The notes under the pieces: model-generated
The model's database searches: none
What the model was told of the DNA's origin: nothing
What the model saw: only the letters and a program-made list of their open reading frames with translations
DNA from: Powellomyces hirtus
Lineage: Eukaryota; Chytridiomycota; Chytridiomycetes; Spizellomycetales; Powellomycetaceae
DNA length: 64,000 nucleotides
NCBI GenBank assembly: GCA_025526995.1
Contig: JAHLKG010000017.1
Span: forward strand, 1-64,000
Reading direction: 5' to 3'
Translations under genes and position numbers: made by a program
Shown here: in pieces, positions 8,212 through 58,504 of the stretch
Layout of the letters: every line of letters begins with the position of its first letter
Position numbering within the stretch: the stretch's first letter is position 1

Positions 8212-9330
8212 TCAAAATTTGTTTTTGTTTTTGTTTTCGTTTTCGTCCTTTTCTTTTTCCGTTTTTTCCTCAGGGATTCGGATTTTAGATTTCTTCCCAT
8301 GCGGGGACACCTTTGGTCGGCCCGCTTTCCAGAACACCCCATCATTCTCAGCGAGGACGATTTCGGGGCACCAAGCGAGGATTTCCGGCAATCGGTCCAG
8401 ATTCCATCGTTTTGGTTGATGGTAACCCATAGGGTTCTCTGCCCACATTGTCTCGACGGAAAAGCAGCGGGACTGGTCCCGGGTGGGGAGCGGGGGGGCC
8501 GGCGGGTTGGCTAGTTTTGGAATTTTTGCGGCAAACCACTGATCTTCTGGCTGTCGCTCATTCAGGTCATCGTCCGACCAATCAAATGTCCGAACCGTTC
8601 TCAGCATTGTGGGAATGTGGCGGATGGAAAGCCCGCCGTTACTTCCGATACCAAATTGAGGTGCTATCGGGGCGCCAATGAAAGCATAGTCGAGGAAATG
8701 CTCGGGCCGCAAGGGCGAGGAACTACAGAGGATGCTGTCGGCTTGGAACAGGAGAGCATGGGTCGCGGAAAGCAGAGATAGGGATTCCCATATCCACTCT
8801 GAGGTCAGAAACTCTGATACATCATCGTGGCAATCGAACCTGCTGTCGGGCGGGAGAAGGTGCAAGACGACCTGGCCGCGGGCAACGAGGCCGGCAATCG
8901 GCGAGGAGGTTGCGAGCATGACGGCGTTATCGGGGCTGTGATAGATGTGAATGGGCCACGACGGGCCAAGATAACCCGCAAAGTACGTTATGATTGCTGG
9001 AATGTTGGGCAAAGGGCGAGCTTCAATGAACACGGCAACGGTCTTGGGAGACCCTGCCGGTGGGGTAGATCCTGTTCCGTTTAGATTGACGGTGCTTGTC
9101 GTGGAAGACGTCCACCCTGTGGGGTGGGTCGGACACTGAAATGGCTTCTCTTTATGCACAGAGACCGATCGAAATGTCAGAGATATGAAGAAAGTCAATG
9201 CACTCAGGGCAAGCAGCAGCAAGAGCTTCCGACGCATGCTCCTGTTTCGTGGAGTCGTTATCAGGCGGTACCACAATGGCTTGCGGTGTGAGAGGTCGTG
9301 ATCTTTTGTTGAAATGCCGAGGTACACCAT
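8212..9330 (-). CDS. DUF5672 family protein, putative Golgi glycosyltransferase (copy 2)
   Basis: Single-exon frame of 372 codons from ATG 9330. A second in-frame ATG at 9237 directly precedes the signal anchor (RRKLLLLLALSALTFFISL) and would give the same N-terminal layout as copy 1. Conserved blocks match copy 1 in order: VFIEARPLPN, YFAGYLGPSWPIHIYHS, LLFQADSILC, AFIGAPIAP, SNGGLSIR, PEDQWF, FSVETMW, MGYHQPKRW and AWCPEIVLAE. It differs by a longer linker after the anchor and by a charged C-terminal tail that ends in Lys/Glu/Asn repeats. The tail is written in a TTTTGT/TTTTCG-like simple repeat (about 8212-8270), so it probably arose by repeat expansion past an older stop. Role inferred as glycosylation in the secretory pathway. 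Confidence 0.8.
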   Translation of the reverse strand: MVYLGISTKDHDLSHRKPLWYRLITTPRNRSMRRKLLLLLALSALTFFISLTFRSVSVHKEKPFQCPTHPTGWTSSTTSTVNLNGTGSTPPAGSPKTVAVFIEARPLPNIPAIITYFAGYLGPSWPIHIYHSPDNAVMLATSSPIAGLVARGQVVLHLLPPDSRFDCHDDVSEFLTSEWIWESLSLLSATHALLFQADSILCSSSPLRPEHFLDYAFIGAPIAPQFGIGSNGGLSIRHIPTMLRTVRTFDWSDDDLNERQPEDQWFAAKIPKLANPPAPPLPTRDQSRCFSVETMWAENPMGYHQPKRWNLDRLPEILAWCPEIVLAENDGVFWKAGRPKVSPHGKKSKIRIPEEKTEKEKDENENKNKNKF

Positions 9331-11884
9331 GCTGGGCAAGAGGATAACAGCGTTATAGTTGATCGAGGGATATTATGGCGTGGTGTGCAGGACAGGTGTG
9401 CAGGACAAGTTTGGCTGCTTTCCTCCGTCGATTGGTTGTGGTTGCAGTTGGGGGCAGTTTGGTGAGATAGCGAGAGGAGAACGCTTATGGGAGTTTTGAG
9501 GGAGTCGCAAGACCGCTGCAGCAAGACGAGAACAGACCAAGTGCGTCGCAGAAACGTACCCCGCTTGATAGATATCAATTGCTATTTGCCGTCAAAAGGC
9601 TACGAATGTCCTTCGTTCATTCGAAGTCAGCCCAAGGCCTTAGTAGTACTTCTGCATAACTATGCCAACTTTGAAGCCCAACCAGCGGCCAAATCATCGC
9701 CTACAAGCACGCGAGCGCTTACATACCGCTGTAGATCTAAACTTACGAATGCTAAAACTAAGGTACTGCAAAGTGAATCTCTAGATACTGGACGGTGTCC
9801 ACCAGTCGCTTCCCAGGGAAAGTGGGGAAGAAACAGTCAATTCATCTTGCCGTCCCTCAAATCTGGTACTGCTTTCATCCTTGCGTATTCTATTTAGCGA
9901 TTATACGATTATACTCACACATTGGCCTCTGGAGAGCACAACAGTGTCAACTGCACGGTTTGCTGATGAAAGCGCTGCAAAAGTCTCAGCAGAAGAGCCG
10001 ACCAGGTAACCTCTGTGGCACGCGGCCTTGTGGCTCAACCCTTTTGAGAAGCAGCAACCGTCCCGTTTGGCTCATTGGCGCAGCATCGAAGTTGCGGTCG
10101 GATTTGTGAGAGGTCCAATCAAGAATTGGAAAGAATCATTACATGTCAGTTTAGTGGGACTACGCTGTAATTGACCCGCAAGATTTGACCTCGATTGTAT
10201 GATACTGAACCCTTACAGTCCGGAATGGCATTGCTTCTGCAGCAACAAATTTTGGAACAGCTCGCAATTGGGATGGGAAATAGACCTCCCCTCTCTTCTT
10301 TGGCTTTCCGTGCGACATGTCCGCCCATATCGCCATCGCTGAGATATGCACTAACACAGATGACTGGGAGTCGAGCTGCAATATGAACAGAGTTCGACTG
10401 CTTGCACGTATATGTACCGGTTATATACGAGTCTTCGCATGTTCAATGGCCTGCGATTTCTATACGAGTCTTGACCCAACAGTCAAACATGCCGTTTGTG
10501 GAAATACATCTTCGTACCCTACTCGCATTATCAGACAATGTGGGTTAACACCTAACTTGGCGGTCTACAGCGGACCCGACCCTGTTCCCGCCCAGCCAAT
10601 TCCCGTATCTTTTCCTGTCCTGACCCGGCGGACCAACGTCAGACACATTTCACAAATCTCCACAACTAAGGGCAAAAGCATTGTTTCTACTCTGCACCCT
10701 CTTCGCGGTTCTTCAACTTGTTTTTCTACCTGGAAACCGAATTCGCCGCTCACGGGCGCCGGCATCCGCACTCACCCAAGCTCAAGCGTGCCAACAGTTT
10801 GTTTTGGGACGAGGTTCATCCTTCACCCTTGGATTCTGATGTTCCCAACGCCACCGTCACGCCTGTGGTCGCGACATTGCACGCTGTCAACGTGTACCGT
10901 ACCTGTTTCGCGTGGCGGACATTGTTTCGAACTCGATCGCAAACAGTGGACATCGGGGACCCAAAGTCAGATAAAAGTCATGAAACGTGACCGTGGCACG
11001 TCGTTTCGACCGCCCATGTTTATCGACATCGAAGTAGCGGTATCCGTAACGGCTTTGCGGTATGACGGAGCGCCACCTTCTTCGGTCCACTATACGCGAA
11101 AACTCTGGATTGGTAGAAAGGCACCTTTGTCAACAAAGGCCTCTCTGAGTCATTTCAATCATGCGTCACATACTTCGACGACAGATATCAGGGCGACGGC
11201 CACGTTGGTTGTGCCGACCAAGAGAGCGATCGGGATCCCAGGTTTCTCATATTCGCCATAGGCTGCAGCTTGTTCGATTGGATGGGTACGTCGCACAGGA
11301 CATCCAACTCGATACCGGTACGTCGTATATGTATTTGCCACCGGTTTCATTAAAAACAAAAGAAGCGATCCCATCGCGTACTTTAATATGTTGAGGCTAT
11401 GACATCTCGGCCACCGGTTTTGATGGCCCCTGCATTGCGTAGAATGAGCCCATTGAAGAAGACCGTGCACCGAGGCTGACAATAACGTGTTCCCTGTTAT
11501 GATGTATTGATGATTCAATAGCATCGAGCAATTTTGAGGCAATGGGTTCCCAGAGTTGGCGGGTTCTTGAGTTCGTCTAACCTCTGTTGCTCAGGTGCCT
11601 CCGATGCCCAAGTGTTTGTACTGAGGGAGATTGATCAAGTCCGACAAACTTGCTTCTGTGGTTTGTGAGCGGTAACTCTCGGGTGAAGCCAAGCCGCTTG
11701 CTGGATTTTACCAGCATTGTACGCCCAATATACTCATTGGCGAAGTCATAACCGGAGAAAGTACTAATAGAAGTGCTAAAAAGTAGAATCATACCTAAAT
11801 AGTAGACGCAATTGCCGATGAGCGTATGTGAGAATACACTAAATCCTATCTATGGCCTGTAGGGAAAAGAATGTTAATCTCGTG
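9331..11884. other. 2.5 kb with no confidently recognised gene
   Basis: Long open stretches occur on the plus strand (10317-11261 and overlapping frames), but the best-looking peptide segments sit in different frames. One short segment bounded by good splice signals (11117-11285) is listed separately. The rest looks like intergenic sequence or a decayed gene. Confidence 0.4.
11117..11285 (+). pseudogene. possible orphan exon of an unidentified gene
   Basis: The segment starts after an acceptor (GGATTGGTAG), stays open for 56 codons and ends at a donor (GTACGT). Its peptide looks protein-like, with KGTFVNKGLSESF, then CVTYFDDRYQGDG and FLIFAIGCSLFDWM. A plausible preceding exon ends at a GTATGA donor near 11060, but I could not chain further exons to a start or stop. 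I do not recognise the family. It may be a decayed gene. Confidence 0.22.
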
Positions 11885-29799: not shown

Positions 29800-30195
29800 T
29801 GATGGATGTCTCCCTTTCCCGTGTGAACTCGTTTCCGTCTGTTCGCTCTTTTCATCCATCCCATATCCATCCATCCCATGCCATCCATCATCCTTAACCT
29901 AGTCTCTTTCGCTCATGCCATCATCCTTTATGCTAGTCTCACTATCCCATCCGCATATCCATGATGATGAGTCAAGTCTATTCAGTCTATAGTCAGTCAG
30001 TTGAGAGAGAATGAAATGAGAGTGACCCTAAGAGTTGATATCTCTCTCTCCCTTTGGCCGTGTGAACTCGTTTCCGTCTCTCCCTATTTCTATCCATCCA
30101 TCCATAATCCATTCCTTATTCTAGGCCATCATCCTTATGCTAGTCTCCACGCGGCCGTGCTGATATCAGTCCATCCTTGTCCTAGTTACTTTCGC
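29800..30195. repeat. diverged direct duplication, two units about 240 bp apart
   Basis: Both units contain GTGTGAACTCGTTTCCGTCT (about 29821 and 30060), then ATCCATCC-rich sequence, then CATCATCCTT(T)ATGCTAGTCTC (about 29920 and 30127). Order and spacing match with indels, so they share an origin. Confidence 0.65.
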
Positions 30196-30982
30196 ATGCA
30201 TGATGAATCTAGACATGATGAATCTAGGCAGATGATGAGAATGGCCATTCTTCTCTCTTCTCTCTTCTCTCGACACGCACGCGCGTTCAACGACTCGGGG
30301 CCCCCCTCTCTCTCCCGTTGCTCTCCTTGTCTCTCTCGCGTCTTTCTATCGCTCGGGGACTCACTCTCTCATAGCCCATGTCTTCATCGTGGGTGGACTC
30401 ACTTGCCCCCTTTCTCTCGTTCGTGTCCCCAAGTGTCACTCCCCATTGGTTCGCTTGTATCACCTCCTTTCTTTCACGCGTCCCCAACTATCGATACACG
30501 CGTTCACGCTTGCTTACCCTCGCCTTCCCCTTCGCCTTCCCCCTCGCCTTCCCCCTTCCCCCCGGGGCCCCGCGTCAGTCAAAATTAAAAAACTATCCCT
30601 TGCAAAAAATTCCTCTTCCATGTTTCTCACCAATAAATCTCCTCAACCAACGACACCCACAACCACAACCACAACCACAACGACTTCGACGATGGATGAT
30701 GATGTGATGATCCCACCACGACTCTCTCGACGCTCATCCTCTCCTCTGCGTCGAGATATCCCCCCTCCTCTCCTCCCTCACCTGGCCAGCGCTCTCCTCC
30801 TCTCAGGGGCTTCTTGCTGCTGCTGCTGCTTCTCCGCTCGGGCCTCATCCATTCCCTCTCAAGCCGCCAACCGTCTGCGCCTGCGCCTGCCCAGTAGGCA
30901 TTTTTGTCCCCACCCCCTCTCAACCGACCATTTGCGTCCCGCCTTCTCATTCGTCCACTCACGGCTCAGCCCTGCCTCGATT

Positions 30983-31001
30983 CCCCCCCCCCCCCCCCCC
31001 C
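30983..31001. repeat. 19-nt poly-C tract
   Basis: An uninterrupted C run in the CT-rich spacer upstream of the zinc-finger gene. Confidence 0.9.
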
Positions 31002-31416
31002 GTCTGCGAGCTCTGTACCTAAATACCCCTCCATCATTCCCTTGCTCTGGATTCACTGCCCCCCGACTCGACGTAACCGCTAGCGCTGGCGCTTGCCTCC
31101 CCCCGTCACTTTACCACCCCGAGTCCACATCCAAAAGTCCCTCTTCTGGTCCAACTTTACTGCTTCTAACAGACCTTTGCTGGCAACCAGACGAAGCCAG
31201 ACAACTTCCTTGGTGCTTTGAGCTAGTGGTCGCTCGGATATCCCATTTTTGCCTTCTTGCCCCCATCCTCATATCCCTATGCACCGCCGCTATCCCCAAC
31301 CCCTCTAAATAATGACCAAGCAGCCTTTCATCTCCACTCTTCCACGACAACCACCACCTCCACCATCGCATCCACCAGCACCCACTACATCACCTGTGAT
31401 TTCTTCTTTTCATTAA

Positions 31417-33505
31417 ATGGCCCATAGCATCCCCCGTATGCCATCATCACCCGCTTCGTCTGCTCACTCTTTGGAGTCGTCACACGAATCAGAGGACCCG
31501 TCGCAGGTCCCACCCCCGCCAGCGTCCGTGGATTCGAGTGGTGCGAGCTCAACAACATCGGCTGGGAAAACGTCCGTCTTTCCGTGCACTGCGCCAGGTA
31601 GGGGCCAAGCGAAAAGCCAAGCAAGATTTGCACGCGATGTCAAACATCATTCTTTTCCGCTGTCGCAGCGTGCATCTGTTTTTGCCAAACCATCTCATCT
31701 CTATCCCCGTTCATCTAGGTTGCCACAAGGTCTTTACCCGCCGCTTCAACCTCCAGTCCCACCAACTCGTCCACTCGGACCGCCGTCCCTTCACCTGCCA
31801 CGAATGCGGCGCCACCTTTCGTCGCAAATTCGATCTCCGACGCCACACCCGCAGTCTCCACGCCGACGGCTCAAAGCCGTTTGTCTGCCACCTGTGTGGG
31901 CTCGGCTTCACCCGCTCGGATACCTTGAGGAGACATCGCGAGTTGGAAGCCATGAGAGGGCGTGAGGCCGAGGCCGAGGCTGAGGCCGAGGCTGATGCGG
32001 ATGCCGTTGCCGCCGGCGTCCCCAGCGCGGCGGAAAACAGTGTCGCTCCTAAGCATCCTCTAAAAAACTCGACCAGCGCCGCGGGCGGCCTGGGCAACAG
32101 CGTGGGCGCGGACGCAGGACCGTCCTCCACGCCCGCAACCGCAACTGCAAGGACGGCTGCATCGTCGTCGCAACAACACCACCACGCCACCGTCGCTTCC
32201 GCTTCGCATCAACAACCACCACCTCATGAACAACAAGCGGCTGCGGCCAACCGACTGTCGCAAATGGACATACGCCAGCAGATACATCCCCAGCCGTTCG
32301 TTCTTGATGCACACCACCACGACAACGTGCTCATCCAGCACCACGGGCAGGACCCTGGCCGGATGATGCAGTATCCGGAGCCACCGCCCCATGCGCAGGC
32401 GCATCCCCAGCGGCACCACCCACGACCCCTCGCACAACTGCAACCGCGGCGGTATTCGCCCTATCCACGCGTACCGTACGCATCTCTGCCCTCGCGATTT
32501 GATGCACGCGACCCGGACGCATCTCTGCCCTCACGCCTCGACCGCTACCAACAACAGCAGCATCAGCAGCCGCAGCAGGAGGCTCTGCATCCGCGGCGGC
32601 AACATGAACCCCCACAGTCAAGAGCAAAGGGCCAGCCGCAGCAACGCGCACTCCCCTCCCATTACCGACACCCGTCTTATCCAGACCCTGACCTCCCTGC
32701 CCACTACAAACCTTCATCCCCGTATCCCGGCGCAAGGGGCCCGGCTTCGTCGTGGGGAGTGTTCTCTGGACCGAGACACGCTCCATCGCACCACCACCAC
32801 ACGGTCACCACTCGCCACAGCTCCTGGGAAGTGCGCAACGAGTCCCCCGCCCTCCCTTCGTTTGACCAACTCGCACACCGTCACCACACCGATCTCTACC
32901 CCATCCACCACCACTGGCAACAACACGACCACCTCCGTTCGCAGCAACAGCAGCACCACCCACAACACCGCTCGCATTCCCTCTCCCCCCTGGCCCACCT
33001 CGCCATGCAGTCGGGCTCCACCCCGTCCCCGATCCTCCCCCCGCCCCAACCCTCATTTCCACAGTCGTCTGCCTCCCCAACCTCCTTTTTCGCGATCCAC
33101 CAAGCTCGCATCACCACCCGCCCCGCGACCAGCTTGAATACTCTCTCACCCGCCGCATCCACTTCTTCGTCTTCCTCTTTTTCTTCTTCTTCTTCACCAC
33201 ACCTCCCGGTTACAAAGTACGACCCTATCCACCTTCCCCCCGTCGTAACAACAACCACCACCTCCGCGTCACCACCACCATCCACACTAGCCCACCCACA
33301 CCACCACGACCCCGCACCACCCTCATCCACCCCACCAGCACTCCCGCCCATAACGGACCTCTTGTCCCAAACATGTGCACCGCCGCCCCCATCGGGAGGG
33401 ACATTCGAGTCGTCGCCACCACCACCACCACCACCGACCACGATCTCGGGCGGGTTGGAGAGGTATCATTTGTCCACCCCGCCTGATGCGGGTAGGAGGG
33501 AGTAG
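31417..33505 (+). CDS. C2H2 zinc-finger protein with His/Gln/Pro-rich tail, 2 exons
   Basis: Exons 31417-31597 and 31719-33505, 655 residues. The intron falls inside the first finger, between CTAPG and CHKVF. Finger 1 (about 56-80) is C-x4-C-x12-H-x3-H. Finger 2 is C-x2-C-x12-H-x4-H with a conserved linker. Finger 3 (FVCHLCGLGFTRSDTLRRH) has the first three ligands but lacks the final His, since REL E follows. This trio resembles DNA-binding fungal C2H2 factors. After an EA-rich stretch written in a GAGGCC-like repeat, about 500 residues are low-complexity His, Gln, Pro and Ser with no domain, probably a disordered activation or phase-separating region. Sequence-specific transcription factor by inference; target unknown. 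Confidence 0.75.
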
Positions 33506-34120
33506 ATTTGGAGTTTGGCGAGAGATGGCGGGCGGGGCTGAAGGTGCCGACGACATCTGCATCATTACCGCCACCCGTCGCCGCGGCGCGTTAAGGAGTG
33601 GTAGAGTGCGCTGACGAGCAGCGTCGAACAAACGCCAGAGCGGCGCAGAGACATACACGAGTGTGGGGTAATTACCTGCCGGGGGGATTGCGACCCACCC
33701 GTCAACATGTGTTTTGCGACTACCTTTTCCACTCCCAACTGATGCGTACCCGGCTCACGCACCCAAAATCCCCAAACGAAAAGGCGCAGACAGTGGAATC
33801 GAAATAGCAGATACGAAAAATACGACGGGGGGCGAAACACGAACGGGGATTCCTCCCGCCCGCTGGCTCTTGAACCCCCACCCGGTTTCCTCCACGCTAC
33901 CCCTCATCGCTCGCCCAAACAACATGCCTAGGTCATGTTATCCGCCTTGCGCGCTGGCGTCCACATTGTCCTGCGTTCGAAAACACGCGCGACGAGGCAA
34001 AGCGGGAAAGCGGGATCTTGGCCACGAGTACTTATAGAATATAGATACAGTAGAGCAAGACATGGATTATGTGTTTTGTTTATTTAGGATTTTTTTTGTT
34101 AGACTATTAGATGGGTTTGG

Positions 34121-34199
34121 GTAGGTAGGTAGGTAGGTAGATAGGTAGGTAGGGAGATTAGAGTTAGAGTTAGAGTTAGAGTTAGAGTTAGAGTTAGAG
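34121..34199. repeat. (GTAG)n followed by (TTAGAG)7 array
   Basis: About 8 tetranucleotide units (34121-34153, one variant) run into seven TTAGAG units (34158-34199). The hexamer is one base different from the TTAGGG telomere repeat common in fungi, but its position between genes argues for a plain microsatellite. Confidence 0.85.
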
Positions 34200-34473
34200 T
34201 ATCTTGTTTTTTTGGCGCCCACACGAATAGACTTGGAGTTAGAGAAGCAAAACGTGAATAGACATGTGTGAGCACCTGTTCTCGGTCTTCTGACTGGCGT
34301 CTGCTTTTTGTTTTTGCTTTGGTTTTGCCACAGGTATGATCTCCCCACTAGTGCGCGCTTTTTGGCACCGTGGGCTTTTTGCACCAACACCGAATTTTCA
34401 TTTCGGGGATTTACAGTGGACTGTACGTGGCGAAGGCGTTGTGTCTCTTGCTTGCATGGTGTTGAACCAGAGG

Positions 34474-44517: not shown

Positions 44518-47500
44518 TCAAGTCAGGTACGCGGCGACGCCCCACAGCAGTAACGCCGCGGCTGTAAGTGGGGTTCCAACAGCGCGGTGGACGAGATGTA
44601 GCGCGTCGCCGATTTCATTGGAAGTTGCTGCGTCATTTGGCGAAGGTGTGTTTGGGAGATGTTGCATGGATGCACGCGTGCGAAACACGGTGGTAGCGAG
44701 CAGGGCGCCTATGCCAAGTCCAGCTAGAAAAAGTAGCACGTCAGTATCTGATTCGCTTGATGATCTTCCAAAAACGTCATCCCAGTATCACTGAGCACTT
44801 ACCGAGCAAACCAACTCCGACCCAAACAACCGCGAAGGCAGTGGAGGCTCGGCTGCGGACCGAAGTCGCAACTGTGCCAATGACAACAATGATTGTTCCA
44901 AAGCACAAGGCCGCGAATCCAATTCCACTCGCTACATCCCCGACGTCGAGTGCCACGAGGACGGCACCAATGAGTGCGACAAATGCTCCAGGGACGGCGG
45001 GTCGCGTATGAGTACCCTCACCGTGCGGAGTGAGAACCAGCGCTAACAGCGCAAGGATTGCGCCCACCAAAGGGTATAGGATTGCGGCGGAAGGAGCGCA
45101 AGCCAGGGTAGCGATCACAAGTGGCGGGTACCGTGCAAACGCCGCAAAGGCAGCTACCCCAAAGCTTTCGGCGAGAACGACAGTGACAAGCGAGCGACTG
45201 TGAAGGTCGCGGAAAAGCCTGCCTGTAAATGCGTGGTGGACGAGGAATGCTAGCGTGGCGACTGCGATGAAAGCGAAAGCAGCAAAGACGCCTGCCCAAG
45301 TAGGAACGGAGAGTAACGACGACAAAGTTGCGTTTGTTTTACTGGTCGGGGAAGCCTTGCCAATATTAGGGTAGTCATAGAAAGAAGGCGGCATCCGACA
45401 CTGATCCAATCGCTGTAGTCGCTCTACATCTGGGTCCCGCGGAGCTTCTGCACCAGGGCCAACAGATGAAGGAAACGGCGGCGACGCTGTCAAGGTTGGT
45501 ATCGTCGATGTGGCGGGGCCTGCTGTTGGGTTGGTTGTAGGCGTCCCCAAGGTCGCCGAAGGCGGGAATGGAACGATGACTGGTGGTGTGGCACCCGGAG
45601 CAAACGTGCCACCTGGCGTTGTCCCATCAGGATTGGTTCCACCAGGGAGTATTCCGCCTGGCGTTGTCCCATCAGCGTTTGTCCCACCTGGAGTTGTCCC
45701 GCCCGGAGTGGTTCCACCCGGAGTTGTTCCATCCGGAGTTGTGGGAGCTGTTCCGCCTGGAGCTGTTCCGCCTGGAGCTGTTCCGCCTGGAGCTGTTCCG
45801 CCTGGAGCTGTTCCGCCTGGAGCTGTCCCTCCTGGATTTGTTCCATCTGGAGCTGTCCCGCCCGGAGTTGCCCCGCCTGGAGTTCTTCCACCAGAGCCGC
45901 TTCCACCTGAACTGCTTCCACCAGAGCCGCTTCCTGCAGAACCATCTCCGCCCGAGCCCTCTCCCCCACCTTTAGCAGCCTCCCGATCAAACTGCCAGAC
46001 ACCGTCTTTGTCTTGTGTCCAACCTGGTCCATGCAGGATGCGCACTTCCGGTGTGAACCTCAATCCCATATCCGGACCCGTCGCAGCAGCCGCCGCAGTC
46101 GCAGATGCAGGAGCAGTCGCGCCTTTCGAGCCCGGGTATTGTCCGCCCCATACAATCGCACACGCCAGCATCGCCAAGCAGAATCCAAGCGCGGCGGCTG
46201 GGAGCAGGCCAACACCGCCCGGGTGCCCAGTGCCGGAGCGGGGCGTAGGAAGCGCAGCAGTCGAGGTCAAGCTTCGTTTCTGTCTGCGACCGCGGGCGAG
46301 GAGGACAACACACATCAAGCAGGCGATCAGAGCGACCATTGGCGGGATGAGGAACACCCATCGCCAGCGGGTGTAACCGCGAAGGACGAGGGCATAGCCG
46401 ATGATAGGGCCCAAGGCGAGAGCAATGATCACGGCAAAGATGAGTAGCACTGTGAGGAAATCCGAACATGGTGTGTTAGATATAGTGCATCGGCAAATAC
46501 CATCGTCAGAGCTACGCACCATAATTTCGAATGGCATGCCTCAACTTTGTGGTTTCCCGAATCAAGAGGAAGGATAGCGGCACAATTCCACCGCTGGCCT
46601 GAGGCAATTTTGTTAGAATCATGTTGCGTATCCAAAAGCATCCATCAATGTGCTTCAGCAAAAAGAATGTGTGAAAGGACGACTTACCAGTCCCACACAA
46701 GCCTGCAGGGCGATGATAGCGTTCCAGTCCGTGACGCCAGCACACAACGCCGTAAACAGGGTAAAGAACATCACGCAGAAGGTCAAAGGCCACAAAGAGC
46801 CCCAATGCGTACTCCACCATATCCAGAGCGGGGTAGCTCCAATGCTGGTGACCATAAGAGCTGCCATGGGCAACTCAGTGGCATAAGTGCTGACATTGGG
46901 TCCAAAGACAGGTCCACGGGCGATGGCGGGAGCAGCCGCGTGTACAAGGGAGACCAATAAGACAAAGGCGAAAGTTGAGATGACTGCGATGAGGTTGGGT
47001 AGCCAGGTTCTCTCCCATCGAGGGCCATCTACCAGGCCTTGTTCCTCGTCATAAGGACCACCATCAGTGCTTAAGGCCCTATCGACTTCTGGAGACGCTC
47101 GCTGTTGAACATCGCTCTGGACCGGAGACGCATTTTCAATGTCGTAAAGCCCATTGTACACGTATGGCTGGGCCGCAGGTACGCTGGGTTGATGCAGATC
47201 GCGCTGCACCATTGGGTTGACGCTCAAATTATCGTGTTCTTCTGCTGAGGCTTCCTGTTTTCCCCGCATCGAAAAGGACCGTCGTACCGAGCTGAAGGAT
47301 GCCCGTGACTCGGATATGTTGCGCTTTAAGGCATTGAACATGGGAATCTCCACCGAACGCTTCTCACCCAATTCCGGGGTTGACTGCATCACGTCCACCG
47401 CGGACTGGTTCTTTCCAGTGAGGTATCCAGTGAAGGACCGTCTGGGCAAACCAATTTTGGACAAACGATCGAAGCTAACCCGACTTTGCGCTGCTCGGTT

Positions 47501-50500
47501 GACGGTGTCCACCTCGGCGCGCGCCACAATGACTTCGCGCATGTGATCCATCAACGTCTTTGCCTGGGGAAGTTCGGACTGCCGTGACCTGGGCGGCGCG
47601 GTGCCGCTTCGCGAAAGCGACGGTGTGGTAGACGTAGTAGCCCGTGGCACTTTCGCATCGGCCACTATGGGCAAAGTTATAATTGAGTTGGATACGTCAC
47701 TGATTCCACTGTCGATGGCGCTGGCGTTAGCGCTTGACATGGAGTGAAATCTCTTCCGTCGCGGGGGAAGCGCTGCGGTCGATGTCGGGGAGTGAATTGG
47801 AGTTCTTGGGATCACAATATCCAGGTGACGATCCGGAACAGGAGGGATCTGTCGAGGTTGGAAGTAGCCGGCCGTTTCAGCACTTGATTCCCGAGGCTCT
47901 GCAACCGCGTGTTGAGGTCGGAACCCGCCATTTGTGTCCGCGGCACTGGCGTCCTGAGAAACGTTCACACTCCCCCCATCAACAACAGCGATATTCGAGT
48001 CGTCTGAAGAGATTGATGTACGCGCCCCACGGGGAACAAGTGCCGGAAGCGACGTTTCCATCATGCGACGCGTCGGGCGAGCGTCACGTTCATACAATTG
48101 GAATGTGGGCGGGGGAGGGTCCGAAATCGTACGGACCATCGGATGAGGCTTTGCGCCACTAGTCAAGGTCTGTGACCTCATCAGCTTCATAGACGCCAAG
48201 CGCTCAGCAACAGGCTCGAAATCACCATCCGGCGCAGGAAAGGTACGCTCAACAACCGTGCCCTTTGCCTTTTGCATGGACCTTGGCGCTGCGCCTTCTA
48301 CAGACTCGAAGGCTGGTATCTTTCCACGTTGAGACACCTTTCTGCTCGGCCTTTCGCCGCTCTTTCGCGACCGCGAGGGTAACACTGCTGTGGCATCCCT
48401 CTTTGGAAGAGTATCGCGGGACTTGGGATCGCGCACTAAAGTCAATGGTTTCATGGACAATGCTAGTAAAATGACATCCTTCATTAAATGGCCTCCCCGT
48501 TCCTCTGAATCGACTTCCTCGTGAATGATGTCCTCGCATGGGACCATTGCCGGGATGTTGGAAATAGGTTCATCGACATTCCTGGCTACCAGAACTTCGT
48601 TCGCACGCATCGTGATGGGTGACTCCCAAACTATTGGACCCTCTACTTTCTGCTCGGGAGCGTCGGCGATCTCACACCCTGCCAGCGGAATGGATGCAGC
48701 CTCAAACATTGGCGCTTTCGGCTTTTTCTTGGGAGTAACAGCGGTCTCACGCATTGGGTGGGGTGTGGATTTCAAGGATGTAGTTGCTACATGAGTCTCA
48801 ACAAGACTCTCCAGCGGGGCAGGCCAGGGCGTGCTGCTTCCCACATCATCCTCACTGATGTAGGGATGAGCATCCGAGTTGTCGTTGTGTAAATTCCTCT
48901 CCGCAGCAACAGCAGCTCCACTCGCACCATGTATTTTCTCACTGTGCTCGACACTGTCCTCTCCATATGTTGCATCAGAAGACTGCTGAACCTCGGCGCT
49001 TGATACGCTAGAGCCATCTTCAGATGACGAAATCGGTGTTTCAGGTGTCACAACCATGCTTTCTCGTGACTCCAGGTAGTAGGAGTCGATCGCGTCTTCA
49101 AAGTCTCCAACGTCAGGGTTTTGAGAAACTTCCTCCGGCGCAGGTGCCATGGTCTCGGAGGAAATAACAGGTGGGAGGAAGGTGGTGTGTGCAGCAACAT
49201 GTGTGGCATCAACTTTGGACTGGTCATTCGCATTCGTCGCAACTGCGAAACCCTTCTCCAACAGAGGGTACTTCAGGGAAACAGGCAACGGTGCTCTACG
49301 TTCTTCCTCCGGTTCGACAGTGGCAACAATAGCAGCCAGAGAAGCTGGTGCCCTGCTTCCAACCACAATGTCCTCCTGCTGAGAAATTATGCTTGAAGGT
49401 GAGACTGCCTGCGCTCTGGGTCTTTCATCCGAGTTCTGAGCGTGTACAATTGCAGTCTCAACAGTTTGCACTCTGCTCGCCGATACGTCCTCCTCCTGAG
49501 AGATCTTCGGTGAAGGCAATGCCGACTGTGTTCTAGGTACTTCAGTCGCGATGCCCAGGGCGGCAACAGCGGCTGGAGCAACCTGTAACTTGCTTAAAGA
49601 TGCCATATCCTTCTGAAGCATCACATCTGAATGTGGGGGTGACGGTGCTCTGGTTCCTTCCACCAGTTCGGCGGCGGGACCAACAGCACCAGCGACATTA
49701 TCCTCCGGTTGCGCAACTACTTCTGAATGCACATACAACGATGCGCTGGAACCTTCCTCCGATTCGGTGGGGACGACAGCTGCAGGCTGCTCACAGTGAT
49801 GCGGAGGCACCTCTCGAGCGGACGAAGGCTGTCGTGTGGGAACTGCATTTGCTTCAGCGGCGACAGCAACGACAGCAACGGGAAGCGCAGGCAGTGTGGG
49901 GAGTGAGGTCTGGTCCGTTGACGTTTCTGTCTCATCAACTCCTCGCTCTCCCAATTTAACTGGAGCATCGACGCTAGCGTTCCATGAGGAAAGAGCTGGC
50001 GATGATGGGATGCGCAAAGCTTCCGCCGCAAAGACCTTATCTTCACTGGTATCAGAGCCAGCGGTGGATTTCAGCTCGCCAATTCCAACGGAAGCCGGCA
50101 TCGGGAGCGAATGCGTTGATTTCGTTGCTTCATCAATTTCCCGTTCTCTCGTGTCGCTTGCAGCGTCAGCGCTTGGCGAGAGGGACGGGGACGAGTGCAT
50201 ATGCAAAGCTGCCGGTGCGGACATCTTTTCTTCACTGGTACCAAAAACCTCCAATGGTGCGGCAACTATGCTGTCTTTCTCTCCCATCGCGACAACAGGA
50301 ACATCATTGATCAGTCCACGAGGGTTAATCACCTCATCACCTTCGGTCCCGCTGACCAACAATTGCTGGGTAGGAGCAGACGTTGGTGAGAGCGCAGCTC
50401 TTTCACTTTCGGCAACATCGGTCGTTTCAGTACCATCCTCCTTATGTTTGATCTCAGTAACTGGTGATTTGTTGTCGGTGCTAGAGAGAGTCGGGGCCAC

Positions 50501-53500
50501 GACGGCAGCAGCCGCCGCAGCGATGGAGGCAAAGATACTCGACGTGGAAGAGTCGTCCTTCTCTGTCGAACCCGCAACAGAAGTCATCATAGATGGCGCG
50601 GTTTCATGCGATTCCACGACCTCGGCAGTGTGCTGCGAGGAAGACAGAGCCTTGCTTGCCGTTGATGTCGTAGATTCGGCGTCCTGCGCCTGACTCTTCA
50701 ACGCAACAACTGGGAATGGCGTGTTCCACGATGCCTCGCGGATTTGGGATGGCTCCTCAACAGCAAGTCCCAAAACCGGTTTTACAGCGTCTGCATTCGA
50801 TGCCAGACCTCCAGCAACCGGAATCGCAGAAACAGCGCGGGCAAATGGCTGGGACGGCATTTCGTGAGCAATGCTCGGCTGGTCCTGCGTCTCAGCTGCA
50901 GTGAGTGCTCCGAGCACAGCAGCAGCGCCAAGGGCATTTTGCACTGCATCTGAATCCGTGGAATGCGATTTACTCTGCTTGGCTGAGTTCTCAGACACAT
51001 TCTGTGGACCTTCTAGTTTCTGCAGCATAGGTCCGCGGCTCTCCATATGGTCATCACCTGAGGCCGCTCTTTGGGAAAGGTTGACGACAGGTGTGATGGA
51101 TTGAGTCTCATCCACCTTGTTGGCTTTGCTAAGCAATGTCGCTTCCGGCAGTGACTCTGAGAGAACAGGCTCGCTGACCGGCTCCCCATCAAGACCTTCA
51201 TCTGCTTGAGACAGATCCGCCAATGCACCCAAGCTGCGTTGGTGACTCATGGTCGGGGTATTAGCCGAATCGTTGGAATGTACTGACGTGGAAATCTCGC
51301 CATGATTCTCCAAAGACGCCAGAATTGGGAACCTTCCCTTGGGGATGGTAGCGACTTCCGAAGGAATAGACGCAACAGTCGTCTCAATGAGCGGGACAGT
51401 TATCACATCAATGCCAACAGCAGCAGCAATTACACCAAACTCCACCGTTTTCTCTCCAAACACTTGATCAACCATCGCAGGTTTCACAACAGGCATTACC
51501 ATTTTTGGTTTGAAGGACAGCTGGACCGGGTTGGGAATCACTTCCGAGTTCCGCATAGCCTGCGCATACCCATCGAAACTGCTGTTCGCAGTGGCGAGCA
51601 TCCAAGGCGAGATGCGGGCTACATGGACCGGTGTGGGTATCGTTGAGAACCCATCTTGTAGTTCGAATGCGGATCGGGCGACAGAAGGAAGGACGAGTTC
51701 CAGGCTGGAATGACTGCCGACAGTGGCGGGAAGAACTACTCGTGCTGAGACTGGTTTGGCTATGGTGCCCACGACAGCTACCTGCATCAAATTAATATCG
51801 GCTTTCTGCTGGCGAGGTGTGATGATCGGCAACAGATTCGCAACAGGGACCGATTGCGTAATGGCGGGAACGCGTTCCGATGGTTCACGACTGATTTGCA
51901 TCCTCTTGTCCGGTCCAAAGGAAGTGATATCGTGTGCTACTTGTTCCATCTCCACATCCATCACTCGCTCAGCGTATTGCACAGCTGGTAAGATATGGCT
52001 GACGTTCACCTTGGATAAGCCGACTTCCATCACGGTGTCCTTCGGTGCAATGATCGCCATGCTCCTCACAGACCCGCTGAGCTGCGGTAAATGGGAACGT
52101 ACCGTGGCGGGCGCAAACGAGAGACCAGTGCTGGGTTTGTAAACGTCCCGAGATAACTCATCGCTGACGGCGCACTGCCCAACCAAACTCTCGTTTGTCA
52201 CCACTGATGTTCGCTCCTCATATTCCACTGAAAGGGGCACGACTTGTCCATTGATGAAAGGTAGAATGCTCTGCAACTCAAGCTCAGCAGAGTGCAACGC
52301 TGTCATGTCGGGCGCAGATTCAGATTCGCGTACAATCTCTGCTATGCTGTTCTGTGCTGATATCATGGGCAAAATTCGGGCGTCGTGGAGATAGAGGATA
52401 GGTGATAATTTGTCAACGTGATCTCGACCGTGGTGGTTTGCGACATCCAACGCGCGTTCAGTGGTGGTTGCTGAAGGAGTGAAGTGTAGATCGCGATTGA
52501 TGATAGATGTGGCACCGTCTTCAGATTGCGTGGCCCTCATCCAAGATATGCTTGTAGCTTGCAACTCAGGATAACTATCCATCTGAACGCTCCGCGAGGT
52601 CGCGGTTGGAAGGATCGCAGCTGTGTTGATAGGCTTTGCTCCGGTGCCATTGTCTTCTTCACCACTAGTAAGCTCCGACAAAGGAGCAGTACTACTAGAT
52701 TTTGTGAGTGCGTAGGGGAGAATGTTCTTCAATGCCACATCAGAAGTGAGTTGTGCAACCTCAGCTTCCAGCTGGGGAGCAGGGACTGGAACTGCCTTTG
52801 AAACGCCGAAAGTGTACGGCATGTGGACGCTGAGGTGACTTTGCACCGGCGGGATGGGATCAGTGATAGAGATGCTGCGCGGTTTTGCTGAGTTCGTGAC
52901 TTCATCAGACGCTGCGGCAGCATCTTCGTGGCTGAGAGAGTCCGAATTCGGCTCACGCGCAAGGATTGCAGGCGAGACCCTCTGGATATCCCATTCGGCA
53001 GCATGAACGTTGTCTTCAACGATTTTCTCGGAGTCCATTGGAAGTGACAGCGCACGAATCGCGGCTGTCGGTAAGACCTCCGCCACAGTCTGCAAGTCCT
53101 TAGGGCTGAGAACGGCGACGTCCTGCGTCGGCGGCAGGTCAGCGTCTCGAATGCGCGCTTGCGCAACTGGGTGCACCTGAGTAAAAGTGGTAAGAGTGGC
53201 ATGGTCCTGCGGAAACGCTTCGGAAGGCAAAGTATGAGGAACGGTGCGTCCCGAGGCAAGTAGATGAGGCAGGTGGATGCTCAGGCGACCTGGTTGCGGA
53301 GGTGAAACTTGTAGAGACAGCCGTTCCGCGACAGTTTGCATAGAACTCTCGACTCCTTGTGCAATCGGATGCACTTCATTTAGGATGAAGTGGTTGCGGG
53401 TTGGGTCAAACGTCATGCTGACACCAGCGATGTCCATGGGCAATTGCGCGTACGAGGCGGTCGTGGTGGGCAGGACAGGCAATGCCGTCATTGGCAAGAT

Positions 53501-55095
53501 TGGCGAGTCACTGATCACTTCGCGGTTCGCTGGTAAAGAGACAGAACGTCTGGCGCCGTCGACAGTAGGGTGGTGCAGAGCGTTCGGTATTGCAGACTCT
53601 GGAAGGTGAGTGTCTGCCGTGTACATGGGGAGAGCATCCCCATCAACTGCAGTTGCAACCAATTTTGGGTGCACCTCTTCCACCACCTTTTTGTGAGGCA
53701 CTTCAAGCGCCTCAGCGAATTGTTCCAACGTTCCCTCCATGTGAGCCACCACGCCAGGATCAGCGGGCAACACATCCATCACCTTCAATTCCGGATGACT
53801 TTGCTTTCGGTCGACGATGCGTTCTGCTGGCGGAACCAATCCGACCTGATGCGCTACGGTCTCTGGCAGCACCGCCCGAATAAGAACCTCAACCCGGCCG
53901 AGATTCCTATCAATGCGTTCCAGGAAGCCTTCTTCGTCAATGCTTGTGACAGCAAGATGGCCAACCACCTTTGCATCGGGGCTTGGCTCGGCGACTCTCT
54001 TCGCGGACCTCAGCAGCCTTGACAGCATAACGGATGTGTCGTCAATCTGATCGACTGCACTTTTGATGAGATTGGATGCCCGAGAAATCGAGGAGGGTGG
54101 AGAAGGTGGCTTGTGTGCATAAAACTCGAGCGACTCCTGCTTGGTGAGACGAGGCCTTGACTTTGACGCCGATCTCGACGTATCTATACTGGATGGCGTA
54201 GGAGGCAGAGCAGAAGGCCGCGGGGGCAGTGGAGGAGGAACAATGGAGTGAATCCGCGAACCAAGGCCCAACCCAAACAAACCAAAATGATGGCGGTGAG
54301 TGATTTTGTGCATGTTGGCAGGCTCAGACTTGGTGGTGATGACGGTGTCTGTGTCGCTATCCCCATCATTACGGTGTACGCTGTATCCGTATTCCGAGGC
54401 GGCATAAGCATGATGGTTCCAGCGGCCGCTTGCGGAAACGGCGGTCGTTATCTGTGGCCCCGGGGCGGAAGTTCCATTGCCGATCCTCATTTTGCGCTTC
54501 AAGCGGAATGGTTTTGAGATGCTCGCGACGGCGGTGAAGAACGACGGATCTGAATCCGAGTCATTGCCAATTCTCGGGGGTACAACGTTGTCAAAGTACC
54601 CTTGCGATGAGGGTGTCGGAGAAGAAACTCTGACTGGGGACAGAGGCGTGGCCTCCGCATACCTTGAAGGAACAGACACGTTAGCACTCTTCTTTTGAAT
54701 AGCCCAGTCGAAGACGGAAGTCCTTACCAATCTGGCCCTCGAGGGACATCTTTCACGCCCGGGGTAGGGAACGGCATGTCCGCTGACGCCGCCTGCCACC
54801 ATGGTACTGATTCGGGTACGTTCTCCTTCTCCACCTTCAATGGCGTTTCTGGGGTAGCGTCGTGAAACCAAGGCACCGAAATCGTCGACGCATCTGACTC
54901 TAGAGATTCCAATGTGTCGAAACTGTTTCGAGCAAGCGCCACCACGCTGGCGGACTCGCTATCTGAGCTGGGCGGCGTTGAATCTCTTTTCAATGAGTCT
55001 GCAATCCGGGCTTCTGCTTCTTCATCGGCGCTTTCGTCGTCCGACTCGGCGCCCCAGGACGCTGTGAGCCATGATAGCATTCGCGGCCCTGTCAT
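44518..55095 (-). CDS. giant MFS-like membrane protein with about 2670-residue N-terminal extension, 5 exons
   Basis: Exons 55095-54728, 54662-46688, 46598-46520, 46449-44803, 44723-44518, about 3424 residues. Exon 2 alone is 7975 nt. Intron 1 has a perfect branch site (GCTAAC). Residues 1 to about 2675 are Ser/Thr/Pro/Ala-rich and probably disordered and cytosolic, with degenerate internal repeats (see findings). From about 2677 come hydrophobic helices in the order and spacing of a DHA2-type major facilitator N-lobe: VSLVHAAAPAIA, VSTYATELPMAALMV, ALQACVGLASGGIVPLSFLL, ALALGPIIGYALV and RWRWVFLIPP, the last two matching the GPxxGG and WRWxFxxNxP elements. Motif A between TM2 and TM3 (usually GxLaDrxGRrk) is lost (WIWWSTHWGSLWPL). 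A Gly/Pro/Thr loop with PGGTA repeats (about 2965-3100) follows TM7, then five or six more helices. Transport activity is doubtful; a sensor, tether or wall-linked anchor is possible. An alternative start is ATG 55080. Confidence 0.72.
45590..45960. repeat. tandem 15-bp repeats encoding PGGTA/PGGTT/PDGT units
   Basis: Five exact copies of a 15-bp unit (GAGCTGTTCCGCCTG on plus) occupy 45745-45819. Variant units extend on both sides over about 370 bp. They lie inside the giant MFS-like gene and keep its frame, so they encode an uncharged flexible loop. Confidence 0.85.
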
Positions 55096-56252: not shown

Positions 56253-56792
56253 TCAGTAAGCGACTCTCGTTCGCTTCCCGTTACACGCGTCGTAAGGTCC
56301 GGTGCCAGTCAGCAATCGTCCGGAACCAAATTCGCTGCCCGCACGTCGTTTTCCGGTCGCCATCGCCATCATCGCGGCACCAGTCTCAGGATCAAATGCC
56401 ATTGTGGCCAAAACATCGAGACCAACCGGCTCGATGACATTGTTGACGAAACCGTTCGAGTCAAAGACTGTCGGGAACGCATAGCTGCATCGCCATTCGC
56501 CGTCCACCACAAACTTGAACTCGTGCCTCACGAGTCGGTCTAGCACAAGAGTGACGCAGAATTCATCTCTGCAGTTGGGATCTCGAGGCATCGTAATGGA
56601 CTGCGCCCAATCATCAAAGGTGCCTGTCAATACAACCTTCGATGCGGCAGAGTGATGCCAGCGGAAAGTGATGCGCTGTAATGTGCTGACACGTCGTGGT
56701 TTTGGGATTGAGATGAATGTCGGTGGATCTCTTCGGCCAGTTGGGCTGACGCCGCTCGGATAGGATGGCGAGTCTGATGTGAAGGGAGGCAT
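56253..56792 (-). CDS. small CBM48 (AMPK-beta glycogen-binding-like) protein
   Basis: Single-exon frame of 179 codons. Residues about 40-125 form an E-set/CBM48 domain as in AMPK beta: FRWHHSAASKVVLTGTFDDW carries the conserved GxFxxW, followed by VTLVLDRLVRHEFKFVVDGEW and a terminal NNVIEPV. These aromatic and lysine positions (W in GTFDDW, K-F-V-V-D-G-x-W) are the ones that contact glucan chains or fold the module in the family. The AMPK beta C-terminal domain that binds alpha and gamma subunits is absent. The protein is therefore a stand-alone module like the fungal Crp1/Mdg1 or plant PTST-type proteins rather than an AMPK subunit. Flanks are Ser/Pro-rich and low in structure. Confidence 0.8.
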   Translation of the reverse strand: MPPFTSDSPSYPSGVSPTGRRDPPTFISIPKPRRVSTLQRITFRWHHSAASKVVLTGTFDDWAQSITMPRDPNCRDEFCVTLVLDRLVRHEFKFVVDGEWRCSYAFPTVFDSNGFVNNVIEPVGLDVLATMAFDPETGAAMMAMATGKRRAGSEFGSGRLLTGTGPYDACNGKRTRVAY

Positions 56793-58504
56793 CGTGTTTG
56801 TAGTTTTTTGTACTTCTTATGCAGCGAAGCAGGAAAACGACCAGGAGAAGGCGGAGGAGGAGCAGGAGAAGGAGGAAGAGGTGAAGAGCCGGAGACTATC
56901 AGTCTGAGATGAAAAGGACTTGGTCGACAAAAAAGCCTCCAAGGGTTGTAGCAAAAGCACTGAGACTGCGGGGTTCAGGGTTCTTGTCACAAAAGACACA
57001 AGCAGAGCCAGGGGTGGATGGCTTTCGTACAGAAGCGTGTGTGCTGTATAGAATTGGCTCAACTCGTCGGAAGGCTGTTGTTCGTCTTGCAGTTTCGCCC
57101 TAGACTGTCTGTGGTACACACGTGGCGCGCGATGCTTTATGCTGTCACAAATGACAATGATTGTTGGATGGCAACTTTGGCCGAACGGCTTTTGATGAGA
57201 AGAGATGCGGGAGGGGGAGAGGCGACGAGTGAGAAAACGTAAAGGAGGAACAACGGAGAGCAGAACAGATGCCTGCTTTGGTTTTGTTCTCCATTAGTTG
57301 GTCGGATGTATTTGGGTGCCAGCGGGCCGCATCGGCTTTAGAAAGAAAAAAGGACAAAGAATGAAGATAGCGTCATTTTGCAATCATTTCCTGTATAACA
57401 ATCTGATTTTTTGGATGAATGGAGTACACTTGCGACGTCACTATTTTTGCCCAATTCGCCATTCTTATCGCTACTACTGTCGTTAACGAAATCCCAGAAG
57501 ACGGTGAAGTCCAACACAGAGGAAAGGTGGGGGAATCCATGCGTTTGTTGGTGCCGTTGGTTTGCGGGATGCGTCCGTCCCATTGGGAAACAAGCGTGGC
57601 GCAGGAAACGAAAGGAAGAACGGAATGAAAAAGCAAGCAATCCAACAAGGGTACTCGCTTCCCGATGTTTGGTTCACGCCGGAGGGGATCTCGTCCGATT
57701 ATTCAGGGGATATTTTGTGGTACCCTGCCGCCCCCGCCCTTTCGTCATTCTAAATTGCACAACACGTGAAACGCACGCGTCTCTCTTGCACGTTCAAATC
57801 ACGCATGTGGATCGCGTCAAAATGTCACCCACGCAGTCGCCATGTTGGCAAAATTCGTCGAGGAAGGAACTTTGAAGGAGTCTCCTGGATGTTGCGGGCA
57901 AGGTTCCGCATGTAGCAGTCAGTACTGTACATGCCATCCCGCTTGGATGGAGGACAGAAAGCCCCCGATCGCTCGGACGTGGCAGGTCTCGTCCCGGCAC
58001 GGGTATACATGAAAACAAAAACAGAAAACGCGGGAAGCCGAAGAGGTATCCGCCGCATAGGTTTCGACGAAATGCACACTGACAAGTACGTCCGTACCAA
58101 AAGCCTCACCCGGCGGTCCCAGAGGAGTTACCTGAGCATTTGAGCAGCTTCAACATCATGTTTCTTGTTTCGGATGGCAATCGGGGCGGTAGAAAAGGTT
58201 CAGATTTCCAAAAGAAATCAAGGATAAATCCATGCCGATGCTTTCTGCTTGCAAGTTGCCGGATGGCTTAGCCAGGCGGCTGTCTGCTTGAGTAAGCATG
58301 CATGGGATGACACACGTGACAACATACTGCGATACCGACCGCCAGTGGGTTCGTGTTGCCGTCCATACTGTCGATCGTGTTCGTACAGTAGATTTTACCC
58401 AGGCAACTACGTCTGCTCAAAACCGGTTGCAATATATAGCATACTCCCCTCCTGTGCTGATGTTATGCCCCAGCGGCCTTGACAACCCTTTCAATCGGCG
58501 GTAA
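56793..58504. other. 1.7 kb intergenic region between divergent genes
   Basis: No gene is recognised on either strand. Small open frames lack family similarity. It must include the promoters of the CBM48 gene (-) and the Rim15-like kinase gene (+). Confidence 0.45.

Follow-up and report, generated by a model that had tools for sequence, protein, structure and literature searches.

A major facilitator-type membrane domain behind a giant N-terminal tail in Powellomyces hirtus: a possible pseudo-transporter

The window analyzed here comprises 64,000 nt of the chytrid Powellomyces hirtus (assembly GCA_025526995.1, contig JAHLKG010000017.1, positions 1-64,000 of the forward strand), and all coordinates are positions in this window. 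It harbors a minus-strand gene (55095-44518) with five exons, whose product combines a very long N-terminal tail with a membrane part related to the major facilitator superfamily (MFS). A first-pass annotation, made from the DNA letters, had described an exon chain of about 10.3 kb encoding one giant protein with an N-terminal extension of 2670 residues. The model rebuilt from the DNA bears this out, since the coding sequence has 10,275 nt and encodes 3,424 amino acids, 2,671 of which precede the region of the first transmembrane helix (TM1). The ATG lies at 55095, the TGA, the single terminal stop, ends at 44518, and the four introns (65, 89, 70, and 79 nt) are all of the GT-AG type. The deposited P. 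hirtus hypothetical protein DFJ77DRAFT_550316 (P0004) has the same length and is letter-for-letter identical to the conceptual product. It has been deposited only as hypothetical, and in the literature covered no title or abstract opening outside subscription papers and preprints describes such a giant-tailed MFS protein. The following features are present in the gene:

55095-54728, minus strand: exon 1
54662-46688, minus strand: exon 2
46598-46520, minus strand: exon 3
46449-44803, minus strand: exon 4
44723-44518, minus strand: exon 5
53846-55095, minus strand: conserved N-terminal head, residues 1-395 (exon 1 and the start of exon 2)
48431-53845, minus strand: middle part of the tail with rapid divergence, residues about 396-2200, Ala/Ser/Val/Pro-rich, 0-34% identity per 50-residue block
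47018-48430, minus strand: juxtamembrane tail, residues about 2201-2671, with short conserved motifs (four-protein alignment, by eye)
46112-47017, minus strand: TM1-TM7, residues 2672-2920 (from the end of exon 2 through exon 3 into exon 4)
46793-46822, minus strand: position of motif A, residues 2737-2746, with Asp, Arg, and Lys replaced by T, S, and L
45470-46111, minus strand: Gly/Thr/Pro/Ala loop between TM7 and TM8, residues 2921-3134, presumably outside
45609-45892, minus strand: 15-bp repeat array coding for PGGTA-type pentapeptides (Tandem Repeats Finder)
44518-45469, minus strand: TM8-TM14 and C-terminus, residues 3135-3424 (exons 4 and 5, by hydropathy)

Exon 2 runs for 7,975 nt without an intron and encodes almost the entire tail together with the first helices of the membrane part (TM1-3 and half of TM4, to residue 2781). 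The large minus-strand frame, bounded by stops on both sides, spans 2,767 codons (54958-46655). Since the longest antisense frame within the gene has 323 codons, this giant frame is not a product of chance. The codon use of the different protein parts is similar (r of 0.70-0.81 against the middle).

A full-length protein search, covering candidates of about 1,883-5,992 amino acids at E 10 or better, gave seven matches, which are the P. hirtus protein itself and six full-length homologues of 2,778-3,064 amino acids (E 1.1e-78 to 2.1e-69). These stem from Geranomyces michiganensis (one), G. variabilis (four), and Thoreauomyces humboldtii (one) and display the same architecture, which is thus common to at least four species in three genera. 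P. hirtus and the two other species looked up in the taxonomy belong to the Spizellomycetales, family Powellomycetaceae. Smaller relatives were sought with a profile of the membrane part among proteins of 453-1440 amino acids, taking the top 7,997 candidates by shared five-residue words (lengths of 1441-1882 and below 453 lie outside this range). In this search no relative scored better than generic DHA2-type proteins, which are mostly bacterial (best E 1.9e-4). All 25 weak matches listed (E 1.9e-4 to 0.87) carry MFS_1, and 15 of them are named DHA2 or EmrB/QacA. Within the lengths of 453-1440 and about 1,883-5,992 amino acids, the family therefore appears to be confined to the Powellomycetaceae. 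A search with the whole 757-residue membrane part was discarded, as it was spoiled by the low-complexity loop (three matches, E 0.28-9.6, covering 6-9% of the query). Within the P. hirtus genome the nearest frame is an MFS frame of 22% identity (E 6.2e-5), and no paralogue of the head better than E 0.26 was found there. As a side observation, a Tsukamurella MFS protein of 1,041 residues (P0011) has PF01702, which we take to be the queuine tRNA-ribosyltransferase domain, in its precomputed domain list and is possibly another MFS fusion.

From residue 2,680 on, 14 hydropathy peaks are present (Kyte-Doolittle, 19-residue window), seven before and seven after the loop, in agreement with the 14 helices of DHA2 proteins. 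Six further peaks within the tail (1.37-1.93) reach the height of the weakest TM peaks (1.38 and 1.60); falling in stretches that are rich in Ala/Val and poorly conserved (0-4% invariant), they were not counted as helices. The helices had been described as ordered like those of a DHA2 facilitator, and this is borne out by sequence for TM1-7. Here, the piece scores 56.7 bits (E 2.5e-15) against Pfam MFS_1, above the curated cut-off of 33.4, so that a profile search that could have placed the helices outside the MFS left TM1-7 within it; the whole membrane part scores 50.9 bits. Furthermore, the N halves of the P. hirtus membrane part and of DHA2 proteins align with an hhalign probability of 98. 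In the AlphaFold (AF2) model the predicted local distance difference test (pLDDT) is 73-96 for TM1-6 and 56-75 for TM7. Judged from profile and alignment, TM1-7 are clearly MFS, with the DHA2 drug antiporters as their nearest kin, and the score against the NCBIfam DHA2 subfamily TIGR00711 is far below the cut-off (25.1 versus 230.2 bits). TM8-14, on the contrary, have no Pfam match above cut-off and are not recognized as MFS by sequence profiles. Their predicted model is MFS-like (pLDDT 33-73; the model alignment included DHA2 rows), and this half would agree with the MFS in predicted fold only. Without the loop, the membrane part is 51-55% identical to that of P. hirtus in an alignment of five of the seven proteins.

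The membrane part has lost residues from the DHA2 motifs. Five of the seven family proteins were compared with five MFS/DHA2 controls, taken from the 25 listed matches of the membrane profile. Motif A of the DHA2 family (G-x-L-a-D-r/k-x-G-r/k-r/k) lies between TM2 and TM3, and an Arg in TM4 (motif B) and an Asp in TM1 are further motif positions of this family. The signature between TM2 and TM3 had been noted as missing in P. hirtus, and motif A has indeed lost its Asp, Arg, and Lys in all five family proteins: its Asp is replaced by T, G, G, G, and T (D in four of five controls), its Arg by S, A, S, S, and P (R in all controls), and its Lys by L, L, P, P, and L (K in all controls). The first Gly of motif A is likewise replaced, by I, A, A, A, and M, the TM1 Asp by L, F, L, L, and A, and the motif B Arg by Q, A, A, A, and E, whereas all five controls have G, D, and R, respectively. 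The third Gly of motif C is lost in all five family proteins as well. Kept in all five are the motif B Gly, two motif C Gly residues, two Trp residues, and the Phe before TM6; four of the five keep the second Gly of motif A, the Pro of motif C, and the Arg between the Trp residues. The two nearest MFS paralogues found in the P. hirtus genome, both above the MFS_1 cut-off, keep motif A (KLADIFGRK and RLGDIYGHR) and have an ordinary motif B (GRAIAGVG and ARGLQGVG), all read by eye.

The tail consists of parts that evolve at very different rates. The head is 53-55% identical to that of four homologues (likewise five of the seven proteins aligned, against P. hirtus). Per block of 50 residues, with four of the seven proteins aligned, identity to P. 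hirtus is 36-70% for residues 1-400, 0-34% for residues 401-2200, and 26-72% for the membrane blocks without the loop. The same pattern is present among the four G. variabilis proteins, where the differences from P0008 amount, for P0007, P0010, and P0006 in this order, to

head: 2.0, 2.5, and 7.3%
middle: 14.1, 12.9, and 37.2%
near-membrane tail: 6.0, 6.6, and 20.8%
TM1-7: 1.9, 4.3, and 10.9%
loop: 13.0, 12.6, and 23.6%
TM8-14: 2.9, 4.0, and 8.7%

Since the differences in head and TM regions are small and the identities of 53-55% and 51-55% are alike, the tip of the tail is conserved about as strictly as the membrane domain, despite the 1,600-2,300 or so residues between them.

For the head itself, which is rich in proline and Ser/Thr, AlphaFold predicts little fold (mean pLDDT of 43) apart from helices at 315-347 and 366-387. 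Reading by eye revealed three PW/DW motifs spaced by 23-24 residues, a basic patch KPFRL followed by basic residues, and the proline motifs PPPLP[PS]RP and K[PE]PSPP. The PW/DW motifs, PWFHDAT, PWWQAAS, and DWYAEAT (54659-54876, minus strand, residues about 74-127), are largely kept in the homologues. A Pil1 match, found in only one of five heads (E 0.18), was taken as chance. In the middle, HLPxA occurs 10, 12, and 14 times in three Geranomyces proteins compared to about 0.2 times in shuffled sequences (maximum 2), twice in Thoreauomyces, and not at all in P. hirtus. The profile of this repeat from G. michiganensis reaches 47.8 and 62.5 bits in two G. variabilis proteins (shuffles up to 8.4), compared to 6.4 bits in P. 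hirtus (shuffles up to 7.9) and 6.8 bits in Thoreauomyces (shuffles up to 3.0), with only two weak copies in P. hirtus and none above 3 bits in Thoreauomyces. As a family-wide feature the repeat was thus rejected, and because the profile is strong in Geranomyces alone, the middle is treated as a spacer expanded by repeats in one genus. PPxY (PPAYTA) opens the fast-evolving tail in three Geranomyces proteins (P0005, P0006, and P0008), with LPMYTA and LPAYT in the other genera; being absent from P. hirtus and Thoreauomyces, it is not a shared motif, and a DSGxxS pattern was present in only one of five proteins. The juxtamembrane stretch contains the motifs SS[DA]DSxxAVVDGG, DSGxSD, HM[RK]xxI[VI][AS]RAE, and YDIENASPV.

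The Gly/Pro/Thr repeat loop that had been placed after TM7 is present, with 214 residues in P. hirtus and 169-249 residues in all seven proteins, two of which were measured with slightly different borders; its flanks are conserved. P-G/A-G-x-x pentapeptides occur in the loop of six of the seven proteins, with 13-25 PGG compared to shuffle means of 2.2-4.1. PGG is missing from the loop of Thoreauomyces, whose Gly/Ala/Pro/Thr composition is nevertheless similar. At codon level, the loop repeats display 243 synonymous and 175 non-synonymous pairwise differences, a comparison too weak to weigh. In the model, the loop is largely without predicted fold (pLDDT mostly below 50). Its best-predicted spot is a conserved stretch 'GW...DG.W.F' (about 45990-46045, minus strand, residues about 2943-2961), which is modeled as a small hairpin (its strands are 280-282 and 288-290 in the numbering of the piece, with block pLDDT of 67 and 54). 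This stretch bears what we take to be a resemblance to glucan- or choline-binding motifs, a candidate that was dropped, since for the five pieces searched Pfam gave no such family at E 10 or better. SCNM1_acidic (E 0.0024 and 0.054, two of five loop pieces) and LPD23 (E 0.048, one of five) are below the cut-offs and were taken as chance. The Lys/Arg residues of the short loops number six on the presumed inner side versus two on the outer one, a positive-inside count that hints at a tail inside and a loop outside.

Since the coupling residues are lost, the distant tip, for which no fold is predicted, is tightly conserved, and an outer loop is present, we favor, with a probability of roughly 55%, a transceptor- or anchor-like pseudo-transporter derived from the MFS, which would hold and probably control a long cytosolic arm. 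Here, a DHA2-type facilitator with 14 helices would have lost the residues usual for coupled transport and been retained as the membrane-embedded end of a very long chain. The membrane part would reside in the plasma membrane or in a different membrane of the secretory pathway, the tail facing the cytosol and the Gly/Pro/Thr loop the outer side. The binding of a ligand or contact with the wall on this outer side might then be passed on to the tail, or the membrane part might merely position it; the flexible middle would allow the conserved head, rich in proline and Ser/Thr, to reach and recruit cytosolic partners. The first-pass annotation had suggested a repurposed transporter acting as receptor, tether or scaffold, a suggestion in keeping with the loss of the coupling residues and the conservation of the distant tip, its functional step being what we infer. 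A more daring variant is a mechanosensor built from a dead antiporter, in which a pull of the cell wall on the PGGx loop between the MFS halves shifts the state of a cytosolic arm over 2,000 residues long, with effectors at its conserved tip. PGGx-type pentapeptide motifs are known from elastin and flagelliform silk. Nevertheless, the Thoreauomyces loop lacks PGG, and we regard this variant as very improbable.

Several observations weigh against a pseudo-transporter. Neither Pfam nor NCBIfam revealed a known domain in the tail of the exon 2 frame, and thus no known signaling domain. Two motif C Gly residues, the Trp and Phe before TM6, one motif A Gly (four of five), and many other membrane residues are conserved, which a mere anchor would not need. 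In addition, working MFS pumps with a variant motif A exist, according to the part of PMC4601019 that was available, so that the residue losses argue for an end of coupled transport and do not prove it. The functional variants of motif A, the motif C Gly and Trp residues kept in all five proteins, the 51-55% identity of the membrane part, and a model compatible with a whole MFS fold would suit a working but atypical transporter, possibly a uniporter, with a long tail that governs how it is sorted, turned over or clustered. The motif B Arg, the TM1 Asp, and the motif A Asp/Arg/Lys are, however, missing in all five proteins, and the replacements of the motif B Arg differ by genus (Q; A, A, A; E), which makes such a transporter possible, if doubtful.

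A purely structural tether or scaffold, with the membrane part as an anchor only and the tail linking the membrane to a cytosolic structure without sensing, would explain two conserved ends with a fast-evolving spacer between them, a tail whose length ranges from 2,011 to 2,671 residues among five proteins, and a head that has conserved motifs without a predicted fold. For a simple anchor, however, 14 conserved helices would be superfluous, as would an outer loop of 169-249 residues whose flanks are conserved, and this explanation seems rather unlikely to us. Models of giant fungal genes can also err, and the P. hirtus proteins with TPX accessions, a different annotation mentioned in the available part of PMC10608142, which deals with sugar porters, are absent from both the full-length and the 453-1440 amino acid search. 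Nevertheless, one open exon joins the tail to TM1-3 and half of TM4, and six homologues share the architecture. Therefore, a split into two genes or a joining artifact is unlikely and the locus most probably holds a single giant gene; as the codon use is alike across the parts, too, an erroneous model or a fusion of two adjacent genes is hardly credible. The pseudo-transporter remains the preferred reading, and the family provides a usable comparison of what a transporter fold keeps after transport has ended, since the lost-coupling positions vary by genus and the tail tip is fixed.

Elsewhere in the window, some further features were observed:

8212-9372, minus strand: frame with DUF5672 (E 1.2e-26)
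31400-33505, plus strand: frame of 701 codons encoding C2H2 zinc fingers (zf-C2H2 in Pfam, E 2.8e-13); the surrounding region 30001-34000 has a strong GC skew
34158-34200: array of 7.2 perfect TTAGAG copies, a unit that differs by a single base from TTAGGG, the common telomere repeat
56253-56816, minus strand: frame upstream of the giant gene, presumably similar to an AMPK-type glycogen-binding domain

Among the known systems, the DHA2 proteins EmrB, EfpA, and QacA share with the P. hirtus protein the 14 hydrophobic helices, N halves that align, and, among single residues, two Gly of motif C, two Trp, and the Phe that precedes TM6. In contrast to them, the P. hirtus family is devoid of the motif A Asp/Arg/Lys, the motif B Arg, and the TM1 Asp, and the P. 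hirtus protein has the 2,671-residue N-terminal tail and the long Gly/Pro/Thr loop. In the outer segment of Wsc1-type wall sensors a spring has been proposed, and these have a single helix and a short tail; no WSC domain was found in the P. hirtus protein by Pfam. SV2A, an animal synaptic vesicle protein with a receptor role, combines an MFS fold with a cytosolic N-terminal part and a large loop after TM7. It also heads the Foldseek rows, level with MHAS2168, a mycobacterial pump (E 1.1e-4 for each), and this match of a predicted structure reflects the generic MFS fold. The N-terminal part of SV2A is much shorter and its loop is a folded pentapeptide beta-helix, whereas the P. hirtus loop is mostly without predicted fold and its PGGTA-type pentapeptides are absent in Thoreauomyces.

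By analogy, the nearest working model for the giant-tailed protein would be Snf3/Rgt2, the yeast glucose receptors of the MFS, which according to the available part of PMC10876965 signal via C-terminal tails of 337 and 213 residues. Both systems are MFS-derived and have a long tail, cytosolic in Snf3/Rgt2, with short conserved boxes (PMC10876965, same part). The P. hirtus protein is set apart from these receptors by the N-terminal position of its tail and a Sugar_tr score below the cut-off (18.8 versus 22.3 bits). The receptors have 12 helices and C-terminal tails, whereas the P. hirtus protein has 14 helices, and its N-terminal tail has about eight times the length of the Snf3 tail, which exceeds that of Rgt2 in the same source. 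If the pseudo-transporter reading is true, the small class of MFS-derived receptors and anchors would gain members in an early-diverging fungal lineage and in the DHA2 branch with its 14 helices, and with them a tail about eightfold the length of that of Snf3.

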